DNA of 8,020 bases from Planctomycetaceae bacterium (GTDB lineage: Bacteria; Planctomycetota; MHYJ01; SBBU01), in NCBI GenBank assembly GCA_005239585.1, contig SBBU01000367.1, forward strand, positions 1 to 8,020, in the 5' to 3' direction. The notes below the pieces were generated by a model. The model had not been told where the DNA came from and made no database searches. It was given only the letters and a program-made list of their open reading frames with translations. The translations under genes were made by a program, and so were the position numbers. This document shows positions 689 through 8,020 of this stretch, piece after piece (positions within the stretch are counted from its first letter, which is position 1; every line of letters starts with the position of its first letter).

Positions 689-1827
689 TCAATCTTTTTT
701 ATCTTCCAGCGCCAGTGGTTTTAATTTATCAAAAAGCAGGTGACCTTTGACGAGTTGTAAAATAATTGCGTAATGTCCGGTAGTATAGTCCGTACCAGCA
801 TAGCTGTTTATGCCCGGCCTGCCATCTATTGGCTTGTATGCATTATCTCTGTGCTTGATTAATATCCCCCCATGTTTATCCTGTGAATTTGTAATTTTGC
901 CTCCAAAGTTATTCCAATAGTTTTTCCAGCCATTTTCATCTGTATAAAAGAGGGACAAGCCGCCCCAAAACAGGTGGAAACTCGGGCCGTTTGAAGAACG
1001 ATCCAGATCCTCAAGATGCTTTTCACAATATGTCTTTGTCTTGGTAAATATTTCAGTCTTCGTCAGCCCCAAAAGATACATGGGCAATAAAGCCCCCATG
1101 GTCCGTCCCAAACCAGAGTGATTATCTGACTTGTCAAAAGTCTTTTCCGGCTTGGCAAAGTAATAAAACATACCATCTTGTCGCCGTTGCAAGATTTCAG
1201 CATAGTGTTTGCGGGCTAGTTCAAAAACCTTTTCGTCTACTTTGATCCCTGCGTGATCCAGGATAAAAAGAGCCATTAGAACCGGGGTAGTCATATAGGT
1301 CATTGTTGTCTTTTTGTTCCAGTAGGACCAGCCGCCATCTTTGCACTGTAACCTGATAAAACAATCTCGTAGTTTTTCGAGTATATCTTTCAAATCATCT
1401 GACCTGGATGCCTGGTAAAGATGCGCAAGAAAAATAGCTGACATGGAAAATTCGAACGGGTAATATGCGACTAGGCCATGATCGGGCTCTTTAGCAGCCA
1501 ATTCAAATGCCTTGTTGATCTGTTTAATAAGAAATCCCTTGGCGCGCTCAAGATCTTTTTTATAGGGGCCCTCTTTGGTAGTAGAACCGCTGGCGATTAA
1601 GGCAAGGCCATTTATCGCGCTTCTATATATATCAAATTCCCCCAAAGGCTGCAGATGTTTAGTTAAAAAACCAAACGACTTGAGGAGAATCTGTTCGCAT
1701 GGGCTGCATGATTTTGGACACGTGTTGCTATGTTGTGTCTTATTTTCTTGTGGATTGCCTGCAATGCAAAGCAGCAGAGAAAAGAGGGAGATCGCTGGCC
1801 AATTTCCTCCTAACTTTTCGGTTTCAT
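689..1827 (-). pseudogene. Paralogue A: secreted squalene-cyclase-like repeat protein, frameshifted in codon 5
   Basis: This is the last gene of the array. The true start is ATG at 1827-1825: it overlaps the TGA of paralogue B as ATGA and has an AGGAG box at 1839-1835, 7 nt upstream. That frame reads M-K-P-K-S-stop. One missing base in the run of four A (1818-1815 on the minus strand) explains this: with five A the protein would start MKPKKLGGNWPAISLFSLLL, a classic signal peptide, and join the 1645-689 frame without another stop, about 379 residues. The mature N-terminus carries a CPKSCSPC cluster matching paralogue B. The body has a QW-like LQCKDGGW motif, a GLGRT motif matching SAGRT in B and C, GPSFHLFWGG, and a C-terminus GHLLFDKLKPL identical to B. 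Compared with B it lacks about 12 residues around the first QW motif. The TTG at 1645 is a poor start with no signal peptide. It is either a recent pseudogene or has a sequencing error in the A-run. Confidence 0.8.
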
Positions 1828-3005
1828 TTTTTATCTCCTATAATCGAAAGGGGTTTTAACTTGTCAAACAACAGATGCCCTTTGTGTAATAGCAGTATTG
1901 TTGCATATTGAGGGGTCGTAAAAATAGGTCCTTTACCATTAACCTCATCGACTGGGTGGACCGATTTTTCGCGCGGTTTTATCAGGATACTGCCATCTTC
2001 TTTCTGCGCGGCCGAAATAGCATTGCGAAAATGATCTTGATACTTTTTCCATAGCGCCTTATCCTCGTTATAAAAACATGCAAGGCCTGCCCAGAGTACG
2101 TGAAATGACGGCCCATGTTGTGACAAGTCAACATTGTTCACATGTTCCAGTGAAAATGTCTTGGCTTTTTTCCATGTCTCGCTGCTACCCAGTCCCAGGA
2201 GCCACATTGGCCACAAGGCAGCAACAGTTCGGCCCGCAGAGGCCTTGTTAACTTGTTGAAAAACACCTTGAATAATACCGTCAAGAGTATACGCAAAGCT
2301 ATTATCTTGTTGTCTCAGTTTGTCATGCGTATAAAACCCCCTAATTTTTTGAAAAACCTTCTCTTCGACTTCAATCCCCAGGTGTTTAAACGTCAAGAGA
2401 GATATTGCAACACCTGTGGTTACAAAAGTCATGCCCAGATATTGATTGCGCTTCGGCCCGCTATAGCCCCATCCGCCGTATTTATCCTGTTCCTCGGTCT
2501 AAAGGTCGCGTATTGTTACTAATAACTTCTTTAGTTCATCCGATTTGTTATTGGAATAAACATGTGCAAGGAAGATGGCATCATAAAATAACGTGCACCT
2601 AAAAAACGGGAGGTAGAACTCCTTGTCATTTTTTCTTATTCTCTCAATGTTATTTGGCACACTCTCGCTTACTGCCTTTACCGCCTTGGCTATCTGCTTT
2701 TGATAGGGGCTCTCTTTATCTGGAGAACTGGCATAAAGAGCCAGGGCATTGATCGATGTATAGTCCATAGTCACGTCTTTCTTGAACGTCTTGCTGGTGT
2801 AGGTAACGCTCCAGCTTCCATCCTCTTTTTGTTGAGAGACTATGTATTTCAGGGCCTTGTCGATGGTCTGATCGCAAGTCTTGCACTCTTGTGGACATGA
2901 TTCACTGTGTTGAATTGAACCTGATTCAAGTGTTTTCTTTTCTTGTGCGCCTGTGAGTACTATCACGAAAATTAGAGCGGCAAGGTTTATAGGTACAATC
3001 TTCAT
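1824..3005 (-). pseudogene. Paralogue B: secreted squalene-cyclase-like repeat protein with in-frame amber codon
   Basis: ATG at 3005-3003 overlaps the TGA of paralogue C as ATGA, with AAAGGAG 8 nt upstream. Residues 1-20 are a type I signal peptide (MKIVPINLAALIFVIVLTGA). A cysteine cluster C37-x3-C41-x2-C44 follows, then a first QW-like motif QQKEDGSW (58-65). The frame is cut by TAG at 2501-2499 (codon 169), but the same frame continues without a shift to the TGA at 1826-1824. The continuation TEEQDKYGGWGY aligns without gaps to paralogue A (IRLQCKDGGWSY) and C (QEKQLQNGGWAY). After it come SAGRT, GPSFHVLWAGL and the C-terminal GHLLFDKLKPL. Restored length is 393 residues. At the stop position A and C both have Phe. 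No Shine-Dalgarno precedes the later ATG at 2432, so separate expression of the 3' part is unlikely. The sigma gene at 5711 ends with TAG, which argues against amber being a sense codon here. Reaction unknown. Confidence 0.8.
1835..1839 (-). promoter_or_regulatory. Ribosome binding site of paralogue A
   Basis: AGGAG lies 7 nt before the ATG at 1827, inside the last codons of paralogue B. It decides the start: the ATG is both well spaced from this box and overlapped by B's TGA as ATGA, although the frame from it closes after five codons. Confidence 0.75.
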
Positions 3006-4192
3006 TTTGCCGTCTCCTTTAGGATCAAGAGCGCCATGGCGGTCCCACAGTTCTTCCCCGCAGATTTTTCACTGTCTACCCAGAAACCTTCTTTATCCTG
3101 ATCTCTTAATATAACCTCGTGCAATTTTGACATCATCAGCTTTTTAGGTTCGCCTGACAGATTTGAGATTGCCTTGCCTGCATAATAATGTCCAAAAAAG
3201 TAATAGTATGTTGCGGCGCCATAAGGAGGAAGATGGGGCAGTTTTCCTTTCCCGGGGTTATCAGGATCCTCCCCTGGCTTGGTTTTTTTGAGGACCTCTT
3301 CGAGTCTATCACGATGTTTCAGGAAGAGCTCGCATGCCTTTTGGAGATCCTCCTGTGAGATTTCTTTAACCAGATGCAAGATCAGTTCCCCAAGAATTGT
3401 CCTTCCGGCCGAATCTCCAATCCCTTCTGAATCGAGTTTATAATCCTTGTAATTGCTTATCTTGCGCTCAATGATCTCTTCATTGGCATGATGTCCACCT
3501 TTGTATGGGAATGTCCCATTTGACTTGCGCTCTGACTTGAGCGCGAGGACGCCTTTCTTGAACATCTCTTCATCAACTGCCATCCCGCACTTTTTAACCT
3601 CAAGCAAGGCATCGATTACTATTGCTGTGACAAAAGTATATGTCAAACCTTTTTTGGGATTGTAGGCCCATCCCCCATTTTGCAACTGTTTCTCTTGAAA
3701 AAATTGCAGGCCTTTTTTGATTGCTTCCTCGATCTGGGCATTTTTGCTTTTTTGATAGGCCTTGCTTAGGAAGACAATCGCATAGGAAGAATCCCAATAA
3801 AAGGCTGCGACCTTGGAAAGATTTTTGTCATCAGGTGCCCCCCTGGTAAGCGCATTAATGACAAATTTTGTACCTTCGTCAAGTGCTTTACTTGATCTCT
3901 CCTTTTCGATATCAGGCCAAGCGATCAGCGCAAGACAGGCTAGGCTAGTTACTGCCGCTGAATCACCCTGTTTCCCCTTCGACCAGGAACCATTTTTATT
4001 TTGATTTTTGAGGAGGTAAGCGATCCCTTTCTCTGTTGCATTCTTTACCTGCTTACCAAGTTGAAGATCTCCGTCTTGTTTGGTCTCTTGAATAATAATG
4101 CTGCTCTCTTTGCAAAGCTTATGGCTCTCCCAATTGGCCGGGATAAGAGCAAAGAGTATTAAAAGACCAGGAGTTCTAGTGCTCGCTTTCAT
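3002..4192 (-). CDS. Paralogue C: secreted squalene-cyclase-like repeat protein, start rebuilt by an inserted element
   Basis: This gene gives 396 residues and is the only one of the three close paralogues with an intact frame. It has a short N-terminal hydrophobic stretch (residues 8-19, PGLLILFALIPA) suited to export. QW-like motifs are NQNKNGSW (63-70), KQLQNGGW (168-175) and DQDKEGFW (364-371), with SAGRT at 261-265. The arrangement fits the prenyltransferase/squalene oxidase repeat (alpha/alpha toroid) superfamily, but I see no DxDD acid motif, so hopene-cyclase activity is not supported. The ATG at 4192-4190 and codons 2-5 lie inside the terminal inverted repeat of the element at 4177-4360, and no Shine-Dalgarno precedes it. 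Without the element the gene would start ATG-ATG-ACT-AGA-ACT-CCT at 4368. An in-frame TAA lies 7 codons upstream of the present ATG, so no longer start is available. The 3' end overlaps paralogue B as ATGA. Function unknown. Confidence 0.85.
   Translation of the reverse strand: MKASTRTPGLLILFALIPANWESHKLCKESSIIIQETKQDGDLQLGKQVKNATEKGIAYLLKNQNKNGSWSKGKQGDSAAVTSLACLALIAWPDIEKERSSKALDEGTKFVINALTRGAPDDKNLSKVAAFYWDSSYAIVFLSKAYQKSKNAQIEEAIKKGLQFFQEKQLQNGGWAYNPKKGLTYTFVTAIVIDALLEVKKCGMAVDEEMFKKGVLALKSERKSNGTFPYKGGHHANEEIIERKISNYKDYKLDSEGIGDSAGRTILGELILHLVKEISQEDLQKACELFLKHRDRLEEVLKKTKPGEDPDNPGKGKLPHLPPYGAATYYYFFGHYYAGKAISNLSGEPKKLMMSKLHEVILRDQDKEGFWVDSEKSAGKNCGTAMALLILKETAK
3014..3020 (-). promoter_or_regulatory. 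Ribosome binding site of paralogue B
   Basis: AAAGGAG lies 8 nt before the ATG at 3005 and within the final codons of paralogue C. Together with the ATGA overlap it supports direct translational coupling of B to C. Confidence 0.75.
4176..4191 (+). repeat. Terminal inverted repeat, end next to paralogue C
   Basis: CTAGTGCTCGCTTTCA is the exact reverse complement of 4346-4361. On the minus strand it supplies nearly all of the new start codon (ATG at 4192-4190) and codons 2-6 of paralogue C. Confidence 0.9.
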
Positions 4193-4368
4193 AAGTTCGT
4201 GTGGAAAATGTTACTATTGCAGGGATTATACCATAGATTTTCGTTGATTTTGGTAAACTTTTCGTCAAGGTGTAATATCCACACGAACGCCCTGTAAAGG
4301 GGCATTCGTTGGGGAAATTGCTGCACAATTTTCCCAACGAATTTCTGAAAGCGAGCACTAGTCATCAT
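4189..4368 (-). CDS. Leader ORF across the element, coupled to paralogue C by ATGA
   Basis: From the ancestral start ATG at 4368 (GAGG box at 4373-4370, 14 bp after the end of paralogue D) an open frame of 59 codons begins MMTSARFQKFVGKIVQQFPQ and runs through the whole element. Its TGA (4191-4189) overlaps the new ATG of paralogue C (4192-4190) as ATGA. The peptide itself resembles nothing I know and is almost certainly a product of insertion, not a selected protein. Its likely importance is as a translated leader: ribosomes loaded at the original site would traverse the element and be delivered to the new start, in the same ATGA arrangement used by C/B and B/A. Open frame, spacing and overlap are seen directly; translation is inference. 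Confidence 0.45.
   Translation of the reverse strand: MMTSARFQKFVGKIVQQFPQRMPLYRAFVWILHLDEKFTKINENLWYNPCNSNIFHTNL
4195..4288. repeat. 11-bp inverted repeat inside the element
   Basis: GTTCGTGTGGA (4195-4205) is the exact reverse complement of TCCACACGAAC (4278-4288), with 72 bp between. With the hairpin at 4304-4342 and the outer terminal repeats it would let either strand fold into a three-armed structure. Confidence 0.7.
4225..4230 (-). promoter_or_regulatory. Possible extended -10 promoter in the element, facing paralogue C
   Basis: On the minus strand the element holds TATGGTATAAT, a perfect TATAAT with the TGn extension. A start about 7 nt on would give a 5' leader of roughly 25 nt before the ATG at 4192. 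The only TTGACG upstream is 32 bp away, too far to serve as a -35 box, so the call rests on the extended -10 alone and could be chance in AT-rich DNA. Confidence 0.35.
4304..4342. repeat. 17-bp hairpin inside the element
   Basis: ATTCGTTGGGGAAATTG (4304-4320) and its near reverse complement at 4326-4342 pair over 17 positions with one G/T wobble and a 5-base loop CTGCA. There is no T-run on either strand, so it is not a typical terminator. Confidence 0.8.
4346..4361 (-). repeat. Terminal inverted repeat, end next to paralogue D
   Basis: TGAAAGCGAGCACTAG is the exact reverse complement of 4176-4191. The ancestral ATG-ATG of paralogue C (4368-4363) lies just outside it and now reads into the element. 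Confidence 0.9.
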
Positions 4369-4382
4369 TCCTCATTGGATGT

Positions 4383-5582
4383 TTATTTTTTTTCATCTGT
4401 ATTTGACTCATTTTTCTTCTTGTCAGGTGGATTAACATTCACCAGGTTTTGGCCTGTCAGTATCGTAATAGCAGTGCTGGGGTAGACATTCGGAAAATTA
4501 GGCGCACCCAGTGGTCCGGCTTTATCTGCTAAAAGGGCCAGCATCTTCTCCTTAAGTATCTTTAAACACTCGGCAGGGCTCTTGAGTTCCTCTTCTTTAT
4601 TTTCCTCATTGGCCTTTTCATCTGTGCTGTTGCCATTCTTATCAAGTACAAGATTGGTGGGATCACCTTTTTTGACATTTATGCGTGCGTCCTTGTCTAT
4701 AAAGTGCAGGGCTTGCGATGCCCAAAAGTATGCGAACGAAAAGTAATATGGTGCGACTGTTTCTTTTCCGTGTCCTCCTCTCCTATCGCGATTTTCGTCT
4801 AATATGTCTCCCCAGCGGAAAAAGTGGCTCACTACCCATTGGAGTCTCTTCTGGTCGCTTGAACCTGCTAGATATAATGCAAGTTCATTCACGCAATTGT
4901 GTCCGGTAGAGCCCCGGAAGTATCCGCCATAATCCTTGTGTATACCATTAGGTTTGCGATTGGCTTTAAGAAACTTGATAGGTTCTTCTATCAGATGGAT
5001 AGGGACATCGATTCCAGCCTGCTTTGCCTGGAGCAGTGGAATCAGTGTATGAGCAGTGCGAAAGCCGCAGGTCATGTGATGATATCCCCATCCGCCCCCC
5101 TCGCCTTCCTTCACGCGTTTTTCAAGCTTGTCGATCATCTTTCGAATTTGATCCTTCATCTCTTCATCTGATATCTCCTGGTATAGAGTTACCAATGCCA
5201 AAAGTCGGTAGGCAATGTCGTAATCTTCATGATTGGCGTATATTTTTTTCAGATTGAAATTCACCAGTTCTTTTCTGATCTTTTCAATCCTATCGCAGAG
5301 GGCTTTTTCTTCCTTGCTCTTGGTTTCATCTGATAAAAACTGCTTGAGCGTTTTTTTCTTGGAGGCGGCATAGGATTTCACAAGGGATATATCAGTGCTG
5401 TAACTGGCAAAATATCCTCCCCCCAGTCCTAACATCTTTGTTATCTTTTCTGCAGTCAACTCACCCTGAAATAGCTGTTTAGGGTCTTTGTCCTGTTCTG
5501 TAACGTATGGAGATCCAGCGGCGATTAGGCATAACAGACCGGTGCAAAATGCTGATATCATAGGTTTCTCTACAGACCTCAT
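4383..5582 (-). CDS. Paralogue D: secreted squalene-cyclase-like repeat protein, first gene of the array
   Basis: The product has 399 residues. ATG at 5582-5580 has AGGAG 6 nt upstream (5593-5589). Residues about 8-23 (MISAFCTGLLCLIAAG) form a signal peptide core, with likely cleavage near AAG-S. It is the most divergent of the four. A GEGGGWGY motif (160-167) followed by HHMTCGFRTAHTLIPLLQAK and a later FLKANRKPNGIHKDYGG corresponds to NGGWAY...NGTFPYKGG of paralogue C, and STGHNCVNELALYL (225-238) corresponds to SAGRTILGELILHL. A charged Lys/Glu-rich linker (about 320-335) and a Lys/Asp-rich tail end the protein. I infer a toroid of helical hairpins acting outside the cytoplasm. No DxDD or other catalytic signature is seen. 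It ends with TAA 14 bp before the ancestral start of C, so all four genes were probably one transcript, led by D. Confidence 0.85.
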   Translation of the reverse strand: MRSVEKPMISAFCTGLLCLIAAGSPYVTEQDKDPKQLFQGELTAEKITKMLGLGGGYFASYSTDISLVKSYAASKKKTLKQFLSDETKSKEEKALCDRIEKIRKELVNFNLKKIYANHEDYDIAYRLLALVTLYQEISDEEMKDQIRKMIDKLEKRVKEGEGGGWGYHHMTCGFRTAHTLIPLLQAKQAGIDVPIHLIEEPIKFLKANRKPNGIHKDYGGYFRGSTGHNCVNELALYLAGSSDQKRLQWVVSHFFRWGDILDENRDRRGGHGKETVAPYYFSFAYFWASQALHFIDKDARINVKKGDPTNLVLDKNGNSTDEKANEENKEEELKSPAECLKILKEKMLALLADKAGPLGAPNFPNVYPSTAITILTGQNLVNVNPPDKKKNESNTDEKK

Positions 5583-5710: not shown

Positions 5711-6295
5711 TTGCCTGGATTTATATGCAGGCTGATTGAAACTTTTTACCAGTCTGGTTCGTCTATATCTATAGTGGAAGAGAAGAGGTTGGTTTCAGAG
5801 CTCATAAGGAGAAAGGGGTCTGCATGGAGGACGTTTGTGGATGATTATGGCCCGCGAATCTACACTGCGTGTCTTTATACGCTGAAGCACTCTACAGGCC
5901 AAGAGGACAGGCATCTGGCAGAGGATATAGCTCAGAACGTAATGGCGCAACTGGTTGCAGACGATTTCAAAGTGCTTAAAAGTTTCAGCTTTCATTCTAG
6001 GCTGTCTACTTGGCTTATTGCGGTTGCAAGGAATCAAACTCTTATGCACCTGAGAAAGAAGAATTTACCTACTCGGGAGTTGAAAGAAGAGGTGCCTGCC
6101 CCGGTTACTAACAATGAATCGCTCAGGACAGTGATGGCCTCTCTTCCTGAGCGAGACGGCAAGCTTTTAAGACTCTATTATTTCGACAATTGGTCATTTA
6201 AGGAGATTGCAAAGGACCTTCAGATCTCTGAAAATTCTGTATCCCCACTCCTCATGCGTGCCAGAGAGCGGCTGAGAGATGTTTTGATCAGATAG
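5711..6295 (+). CDS. ECF-type RNA polymerase sigma factor
   Basis: The product has up to 194 residues and the two-domain plan of sigma-70 family ECF factors. Region 2 spans about 38-116: FVDDYGPRIYTAC, then the DIAQNVMAQL helix (72-81, the DxAQ core-binding signature) and FSFHSRLSTWLIAVARNQTLMHLRKK (regions 2.3-2.4, which melt and read the -10). A linker leads to region 4 (about 138-193), with LPERDGKLLRLYYFDNWSFKEIAKDL and the helix-turn-helix recognition helix ISENSVSPLLMRARERLRD for the -35. The start is uncertain: TTG at 5711 is the longest, GTG at 5774 gives a more typical N-terminus (VEEKRLVSELIRRK), and neither has a good Shine-Dalgarno. No anti-sigma factor gene lies beside it within the window. 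Its divergent position makes it the likely regulator of the secreted-protein array. It ends with TAG, evidence that amber is a normal stop here. Confidence 0.9.
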   Translation: MPGFICRLIETFYQSGSSISIVEEKRLVSELIRRKGSAWRTFVDDYGPRIYTACLYTLKHSTGQEDRHLAEDIAQNVMAQLVADDFKVLKSFSFHSRLSTWLIAVARNQTLMHLRKKNLPTRELKEEVPAPVTNNESLRTVMASLPERDGKLLRLYYFDNWSFKEIAKDLQISENSVSPLLMRARERLRDVLIR

Positions 6296-6316: not shown

Positions 6317-8020
6317 TTATTTCTTTGATTTTAGTTTGTATGGGTCGAATCCCCACTCGGCCAAGATTTTTGCGGCAAGCGAACCTATTGTCTCACCTCT
6401 TTCTTCCCACTTGTATAAGAACTCCGATTTACCGATATCAACAACATCCCAAGTCTTTACAAGGTCTGTAACCAAGTCTGCTATCTTTTCAGCATGCTCT
6501 TTGGCATTTAGTTTATGCAGCGCCTTGAGTGCACTCTTTCTTACATAAGGATCATCATGTTCAAGAAGTTTAGAGATGTTGCTCGTATATTCATTTGATC
6601 CTAAATTGCTTAATGCATCGATAGCTGGGGTTACTAATGTCGGCTCATCGTTTAGAAAGGCTGCTATATGAGGGATATATTCTCTTGCCTTCAGAATAGC
6701 TAGGGCTTCGATTGCTGCCCTTTGGACATAAATCTCTTCATCCTTGAGAAGATCAGCGATCTGTTTTGTATATTCGTCAGCGCCTATTCGCGCCAGCGTT
6801 AATGCTGCGAATGATCTCAGATCATCATTGAGTAGATTGGCAATATCGCCTGCATATTCTTTACATCCTAGTTTCTCGAGGGCGTTTAATGCATTAGTTC
6901 TAATAGAGGAATATGCTTCATTGTCTTTAAGAAATGCTGCAAAATATCCTCCATATTGAAGAGCGCCTAGATCAGAAAGCGCTTCAATAGCCGAGTTCCA
7001 TAATGTCTTATCATCCTTGAGAAAAAGGGCGATTTCATCCACATATTGCCTTGCATCAAGCATTGCCAATGCCTTTGCAGCAGTTGTCTTTACATAGTGT
7101 GACTCGTCTTTTATGTATTTGACTATTTCTGGGGCCTTGGCTTTTACCTTAAGCTGGCCTAATAATCTGATTGCCAGGCTTTTCTTGAACTCGTCTTTAT
7201 CTCTAAGCAACTCATCTATGTACTTTATTTTTCCTGTGCTGCCTAATTTAACTAGTGTTGCAGCCGCCTCCTCTCGTACAGAATATTCCGAGTCGTTCAG
7301 ATGCGAGGCTATCTTGTCCACATATTCTTTTGCATCTAGGTCTCCCAGCGCCTGCAGTGAACTGATTCTTATCTCAGGATTGACATCTTCAATAAGGGCT
7401 GCGACCTTACCCTTTAATTCTCCTAGTCCTAATCTTCCAATTGCCATTATTACCTGTTCCTTGACCGCGATATCGTTATCTCCCAAGAGGATTGCAATCT
7501 GCTTCCCTAGATTTTTTGCGCCAAAGACTGCTAACTGAGATACAGCAGCAGCTCTTACTGTGGGGTCATTATCCTTTAACAGTGTTGAAATGGCTTCTGT
7601 ATGGATTTTGGCATCCAGTAACCCCAAGGCAGATAAAGCAGATTTTCTGATCAAGGGATCGGCACTAGTCAGAAATTGTGAGATCTCTTTTGTGTATTCC
7701 TTTGCCTTTAGTTCTGCTAGTATTTCGATCGCCCTTGTCTTCACTTTTGTATTCGAGTCAGTAAGTAGTTTTGCTATGTCAGGAAGATATTTCGTATCAG
7801 CAATCGAGTCGAAGACTTGGAGTGCAACCAGCCGAGTTTTTACATCTTCACTCTTTAGTAGCTTTAGAATCTCTCTTGCATGTTTTCGTGGATGGATACA
7901 TTGTAATGCATTTAGGGCGGAGTTTCTTACCTCCTCTTCTGGATCTTTAAGGAGATCTATAAGGTTCTGAATCTGGCTTGTTCGTAGCTCTCCTAATGCA
8001 TAAGCTGCCTTTGCCCTGAC
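6317..8020 (-). CDS. Long HEAT-repeat protein (PBS-lyase-like repeats), 5' end outside the window
   Basis: The frame ends with TAA at 6319-6317 and stays open to the last base of the window, so the GTG at 7744 is not a start: the 92 codons before it continue the same repeats (SQIQNLIDLLKDPEEEVRNS and onward). At least 567 residues are visible, built almost wholly of about sixteen HEAT-like units of roughly 31 residues. The typical unit is [KR]EYxxxIAxxLxDxxxxVRxxAxxALxxLxA, with unusually regular Tyr at the third position. The C-terminal cap is divergent (DLVTDLVKTWDVVDIGKSEF to EWGFDPYKLKSKK). Such right-handed superhelices are protein-binding scaffolds; the PBS-lyase label refers to repeat type, not enzyme activity. 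No signal peptide can be judged because the N-terminus is missing. It is convergent with the sigma gene, 21 bp apart, with no visible terminator between. A link to the secreted array is unproven. Confidence 0.9.
   Translation of the reverse strand, partial: VRAKAAYALGELRTSQIQNLIDLLKDPEEEVRNSALNALQCIHPRKHAREILKLLKSEDVKTRLVALQVFDSIADTKYLPDIAKLLTDSNTKVKTRAIEILAELKAKEYTKEISQFLTSADPLIRKSALSALGLLDAKIHTEAISTLLKDNDPTVRAAAVSQLAVFGAKNLGKQIAILLGDNDIAVKEQVIMAIGRLGLGELKGKVAALIEDVNPEIRISSLQALGDLDAKEYVDKIASHLNDSEYSVREEAAATLVKLGSTGKIKYIDELLRDKDEFKKSLAIRLLGQLKVKAKAPEIVKYIKDESHYVKTTAAKALAMLDARQYVDEIALFLKDDKTLWNSAIEALSDLGALQYGGYFAAFLKDNEAYSSIRTNALNALEKLGCKEYAGDIANLLNDDLRSFAALTLARIGADEYTKQIADLLKDEEIYVQRAAIEALAILKAREYIPHIAAFLNDEPTLVTPAIDALSNLGSNEYTSNISKLLEHDDPYVRKSALKALHKLNAKEHAEKIADLVTDLVKTWDVVDIGKSEFLYKWEERGETIGSLAAKILAEWGFDPYKLKSKK

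Follow-up and report, generated by a model that had tools for sequence, protein, structure and literature searches.

Reviews cover MITEs that have TA at their ends, carry open frames or promoters, or are fused in frame to genes (PMC2229807, PMC10969869), and several known systems come close to the arrangement that we describe. Intragenic copies of RU-2 (YPAL) and RU-1 (ERIC) in Yersinia and Erwinia provide, through an open frame, the N-terminal part of a gene product; RU-2 forms part of the signal peptide in YPO1552 and the N-terminal half of YP_0349, and RU elements are also described as giving C-terminal tails (PMC2759123, PMC2229807). Rickettsia palindromic elements (RPE), of about 150 bp, lie in frame within protein genes (PMC10969869). 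Coxiella QMITE1, which measures 300-400 bp, is described with internal promoters and QMITE2 with a C-terminal tail in enhC and a target duplication of 7-11 nt, and among the Neisseria Correia/NEMIS elements Correia has TA at the termini and terminal inverted repeats (TIR) of 24 bp (PMC5896051, PMC2229807). In ISY100, the ends are 24 bp long and a TA target is duplicated (PMC2170065). MITE-derived N-termini and signal peptides are thus already published; the surprise of the present case is moderate, and we do not claim that its layout has never been in print.

The stretch analyzed here comprises 8,020 nucleotides from a Planctomycetaceae bacterium (contig SBBU01000367.1; hereafter the window) and contains a 180-bp palindrome (4179..4358, minus strand), with a TA on either side, at the start of a gene that we call C. 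This palindrome is probably a transposase-less mobile element. We propose that a non-autonomous, TA-duplicating MITE of the Tc1/mariner/IS630-like kind inserted into a CTAG on the old start of C, a reading that we consider likely, if well short of certain. One insertion at CTAG accounts jointly for the inverted arms, the flanking TA, the restorable start and the recurrence of one end elsewhere. In the proposed mechanism, a transposase supplied in trans would have moved the element and duplicated the TA.

The target would have been a CTAG spanning codons 3-4 of C, at the junction with D in an operon of paralogues. On the minus strand the order is D (4383..5582, read 5582-4383), C (3002..4192, read 4192-3002), then B (3005-1824) and A. 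C encodes 396 aa with Pfam matches to SQHop_cyclase_C and Pec_lyase, and it shares 24% identity with D across 246 aa and 27-28% with A across 224 aa, which bears out the label of paralogue that an earlier note on this DNA had given it. The junction of C and B is an ATGA overlap, and the stop of B overlaps another ATG in turn; in an operon otherwise so tightly packed, the 190 bp that separate D from C today are out of character. Shine-Dalgarno (SD) boxes precede the ATG of D (aggag) and of B (aaggag), and none precedes the present ATG of C. Elsewhere in the operon, B is a single continuous minus-strand frame broken by one in-frame TAG at 2499-2501 (minus strand), both flanking parts being paralogous to A; this TAG may be a nonsense mutation, recoding or an assembly error. 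In A, the ATG that overlaps the stop of B reads MKPKS and then meets a TAG (1790-1830, minus strand), while the frame with a signal-peptide-like stretch and the remainder of the gene lacks a usual start codon at this place; the frame of A is broken close to its beginning. Given this break and the TAG in B, the operon may be decaying or the sequence may hold assembly errors, and C need not be expressed.

The ends of the palindrome can be placed precisely. Perfect inverted arms of 16 bp (CTAGTGCTCGCTTTCA) occupy 4176-4191 and 4346-4361, or 13 bp if CTA is left out; the 13-bp perfect ends flanked by TA, and the 16 bp that include CTAG, had been given correctly to the base in the earlier note. A perfect inverted repeat of at least 16 bp, with a loop of up to 400, occurred in 0 of 200 Markov-1 windows, in which the longest was 15 and the mean 10.8. 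Beyond the perfect part, similarity decays gradually and extends to 34 nt, with 30 of 34 positions identical (88%), so that the C-proximal arm spans 4176..4209 (plus strand) and the D-proximal arm 4328..4361 (minus strand). Arms of this length and identity fit the terminal repeats of Tc1/mariner/IS630 MITEs, which are roughly 20-30 bp. The putative target duplication consists of a C-proximal TA at 4177..4178, within CTAG 4176-4179, and a D-proximal TA at 4359..4360, within CTAG 4358-4361. IS630 is said, in work by Tenzen and Ohtsubo from 1991, to prefer TA within CTAG. In layout, the TA on both sides and the length of the terminal repeats resemble those of ISY100 (PMC2170065), and the CTAG setting resembles the preference of IS630; in contrast to those elements, the one in the window carries no transposase. 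Its 180 bp hold no recognisable transposase, and its two long minus-strand frames match no candidate protein when three shared 5-residue words are the criterion. The window holds a single copy, with two ends located.

The interior is elaborately structured. With both RNA and DNA energies the single strand forms a cloverleaf, an outer stem with three inner hairpins: internal hairpin 1 (4304..4342) has 17-nt arms that are 94% complementary (TTCGTTGGG... and ...CCCAACGAA), internal hairpin 2 (4289..4303) pairs GCCC with GGGC, and internal arm 3 (4195..4288) runs from GTTCGTGTGGA to TCCACACGAAC. Inner arms 1 and 3 both contain TTCGTNNGG, beside the terminal stem and with an inverted partner for each, so each end resembles a longer repeat, some 30 nt in all, with an inner half that forms local pairs. 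A structure of this kind could instead be a cis-acting RNA, an attenuator or translational switch that arose at this site as the native leader of C, in which case the restorable start would be coincidental. The RNA fold is indeed very stable (z -10.75), and a frame that ends in ATGA on C is arranged as in devices for translational coupling or attenuation. The DNA strand, however, is equally structured (z -11.31; 0 of 200 shuffles equal either score), as expected of inverted repeats in DNA, and no Rfam family reaches its gathering score in the window. A known structured RNA was rejected on the same search: Rfam 15 gave 0 matches at gathering score and nine below threshold in 4150-4400, with E up to 5, the best of them (E 0.0054) being to a microRNA model at 25.8 bits against the 90 needed. 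Two further observations given below, the rarity of a restorable start and the occurrence of one element end in another setting, a virus gene, also weigh against a native leader, which we judge distinctly unlikely.

The flanks of the element preserve what appears to be the old beginning of C. In minus-strand orientation, the flank upstream of the element closes with GAGGA ATG ATG ACTA and the one downstream opens with GAACTCC, and removal of the element with one TA gives GAGG-A-ATG-ATG-ACT-AGA-ACT-CCT, in frame with C (reconstructed junction, ATGATGACTAGAACTCC). The continuity of ATG ATG ACT A and GA ACT CCT with the frame of C was read off the two flanks, and this reading confirms the base-perfect frame behind GAGG, 14 bp past the end of D, that the earlier note had rebuilt. 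The old initiation site thus occupies 4363..4373 (minus strand), with GAGG at 4373-4370 and ATG ATG at 4368-4363; the 14 bp lie between the first old ATG, which starts at 4368, and the end of D at 4383. Because GAGG lies 4 nt ahead of the second ATG and 1 nt ahead of the first, the second is the better placed start. When each TA in the window was considered on both strands, 12 of 893 sites were as good, defined as an in-frame ATG within at most 8 codons and an SD-like tetramer at usable distance, and for CTA sites the count was 4 of 175; both counts include the true site. A restorable start with its SD box is therefore expected by chance at about 1.3% of TA sites. This internal evidence, namely the perfect arms, the TA on both sides and the rarity of a restored start, gives good support to an insertion into CTAG at the old start.

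Since CTAG is common to both flanks, a duplication of anything from 0 to 4 bp fits, and from a single copy a 2-bp duplication is not separable from one of 4 bp. This latitude favors another possibility, that the palindrome is a mobile element of a different class with fortuitous TA flanks, such as one of IS5/IS427 type or one moved by an HUH enzyme that acts on hairpins. Such an element would also fit the lack of an identified partner transposase and a nested hairpin structure that goes beyond two simple ends. Long terminal inverted repeats, on the other hand, do not suit HUH elements, and in two virus contigs the TA is kept while the base that precedes it differs (G in place of C). We regard a different class of mobile palindrome as unlikely. 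An integron attC site was also considered and rejected; its core motif is GTTRRRY with the inverse near the ends, and neither GTTRRRY nor RYYYAAC is present on the minus strand of the 186 bp, a scan that covers both strands because the two patterns are mutually complementary.

The two virus contigs, L001 and L002, come from IMG/VR and match the C-proximal end at 25 of 26 nt (L001:371-396; L002:12734-12759). BLAST of the window end against them gives 96% over 26 nt, with E-values that are not independent evidence, as the records were chosen by the pattern. The similarity starts exactly at the C-proximal TA and stops after 26 nt, approximately the length of one terminal repeat; the base before the TA is G in the virus contigs and C in the window, and this difference next to a conserved TA favors TA as the boundary of the element. 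The contigs are related, with no difference between them in the 32 nt ahead of the match or in 146 nt counted from it, and we therefore count them as one case. With as many as 2 mismatches allowed, neither record contained a second end, so the matches are solo ends and not complete copies. They show that the end sequence exists outside this locus as well, and not the route by which it came there.

An ORF in each contig closes with this end, read as VKASTT*, and shares an ATGA with the ORF that follows. The frame is the one that reads MKASTR in the window, an agreement with one chance in three given two cases. The ORF that carries the end matched 0 PHROGs families in either contig, and a search with it returned L001 and L002 and nothing else. 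The two records contain no DDE_3 domain. L001 also encodes a RuvC-like resolvase (781-1260) near the solo end.

These contigs stood out from the remaining candidates in IMG/VR. The bare 15-mer of the end occurs in 34 stretches there. Over the 16 positions that follow it, L001 and L002 agree with the arm of the window at 11, and the runner-up, L014, agrees at 8. A relaxed end pattern found six stretches, namely L001, L002 and four at two independent loci (L005/L006 and L007/L008); the latter four were judged to be chance matches. An exact two-ended copy with ends 130-160 nt apart had 0 occurrences in IMG/VR. The exact 20-base end pattern matched 0 stretches in the genome_contigs collection, the whole element as DNA was unmatched in plasmids and phages, and one 34-base end had no match in the latter two collections at E up to 10. 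Genome_contigs, plasmids, phages and IMG/VR together yielded neither a further complete copy nor a transposase bearing these ends. Relatives of C that might retain an empty site were equally scarce: 35 pattern stretches in genome_contigs yielded 0 confirmed relatives, the predicted proteins contained C itself and one protein of 23% identity over 60% of C and no other, and neither set held a relative close enough. The earlier note's term "mobile element" has only indirect support; one end recurs in two virus contigs, and a second complete copy did not turn up. Against the MITE count the 0 complete second copies and 0 transposases with these ends, the one-endedness of the virus cases, the absence of both an SD box and a consensus promoter at the new start of C, the commonness of open frames as long as the leader frame described below, and the signs of decay or assembly error in A and B.

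The element seems, on the reading frames, to supply the new start codon of C. The present ATG (4192-4190) and codons 2-5 (MKAST) come from the terminal repeat, as the earlier note had recognized, and the A of this ATG lies just inward of the perfect arm, at a position where the other arm has C. No other start gives a near-whole protein: there is no start codon back to the last upstream stop, and downstream the frame has no ATG, GTG or TTG before codon 170. That element ends can act as coding sequence would thus hold as a statement about frames. The same note's wording that the start codon had been "replaced" is too strong; the present start does come from the element, but the old GAGG-A-ATGATG is still there. 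The old ATGATG now opens a 59-codon frame (4189..4368, minus strand) that crosses the whole element and stops on the new ATG of C, its TGA (4191-4189) overlapping that ATG as ATGA. This overlap has the same coupling geometry as the native junction of C and B. An equally open frame arose in 6% of 5000 Markov-1 models, so the leader frame by itself is suggestive and is no evidence of selection.

We envisage that C would now be made from the ATG in the terminal repeat, and two routes to this start can be proposed. Ribosomes could start at the old site, translate the 59-codon leader and reinitiate at the overlapping ATGA. It is also possible that a transcript begins within the element at an extended -10-like box, TGGTATAAT (4225..4233, minus strand), which points at C and has no good -35; if transcription started about 7 nt past the box, the 5′ leader would be about 26 nt. 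The motif TGnTATAAT, an extended -10 consensus that the host's promoters may not share, occurs a single time in the window when both strands are counted, at 4233-4225 in the element and facing C, and its chance in 186 nt is 0.7% on either strand and 0.4% on this strand. The box is a weaker claim than a full promoter: a sigma-70 promoter or terminator by consensus was rejected by scan, with 0 sigma-70 promoters found and 0.6 expected in shuffles under a consensus from which the organism's own promoters may depart.

The insertion would be tolerable from the perspective of the protein because C would have a signal-peptide-like N-terminus with the old start and the new one alike. The old and present N-termini place MTRTPG or MKASTRTPG before the same hydrophobic stretch, LLILFALIPA, which follows basic residues and peaks at 3.6 at residue 10; B (3.7) and D (2.7) have a similar stretch.

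Perfect repeats around a spacer with a promoter-like box that faces C raise the further possibility of an invertible switch, in which the 16-bp repeats would serve as recombination sites and inversion of the 154-bp spacer would toggle C on and off. With the spacer inverted in silico, the start triplet of C reads CTG in place of ATG and the leader frame is 42 codons long instead of 59; inversion would presumably also point TGnTATAAT away from C. These changes make a switch worth mention, and nothing here shows that inversion takes place. The Pfam matches of the eight window ORFs scanned, five of which had no match at all, contain no recombinase, although one encoded farther away could act here. 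The similarity of the arms fades gradually past 16 bp (88% over 34), and inversion would leave the evidence for an empty site unexplained. We find a switch very unlikely. A more speculative extension of the MITE insertion is that the ends of the element are adapted for tolerance inside operons, with inversion between the perfect arms, toggling the start between ATG and CTG, as a further step. The end can be read outward as M/V-K-A-S-T, the promoter-like box faces one end, and the frame is open from the interrupted start to ATGA at the far end. We consider such adaptation improbable; if it were true, an insertion at a start codon would yield a leader-plus-restart pair and not a knock-out.

Set against the described systems, the MITE in front of C differs from each in some respect. 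In contrast to RU-1 and RU-2, just the end of the element codes for C, and the old start persists upstream. RPE fusions are read through, whereas here the long frame of the element is not the frame of C and the two meet in an ATGA overlap. QMITE1, QMITE2 and Correia/NEMIS differ in size or target duplication. All of these likenesses are drawn by description. If confirmed, the locus would be a clean case of a single insertion with a readable pre-insertion sequence, in which a small repeat took over the start of a probably exported protein and left its frame intact. The sequence still shows the old start, the leader and the start in the repeat side by side, which would let each step of post-insertion repair be tested separately.

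Beyond the operon, a gene of the sigma-70 family (region 2 and 4; 5711-6295, plus strand) is divergent from it, and past that gene lies a long gene for a HEAT-repeat protein (6317-8020, minus strand) that runs off the window.
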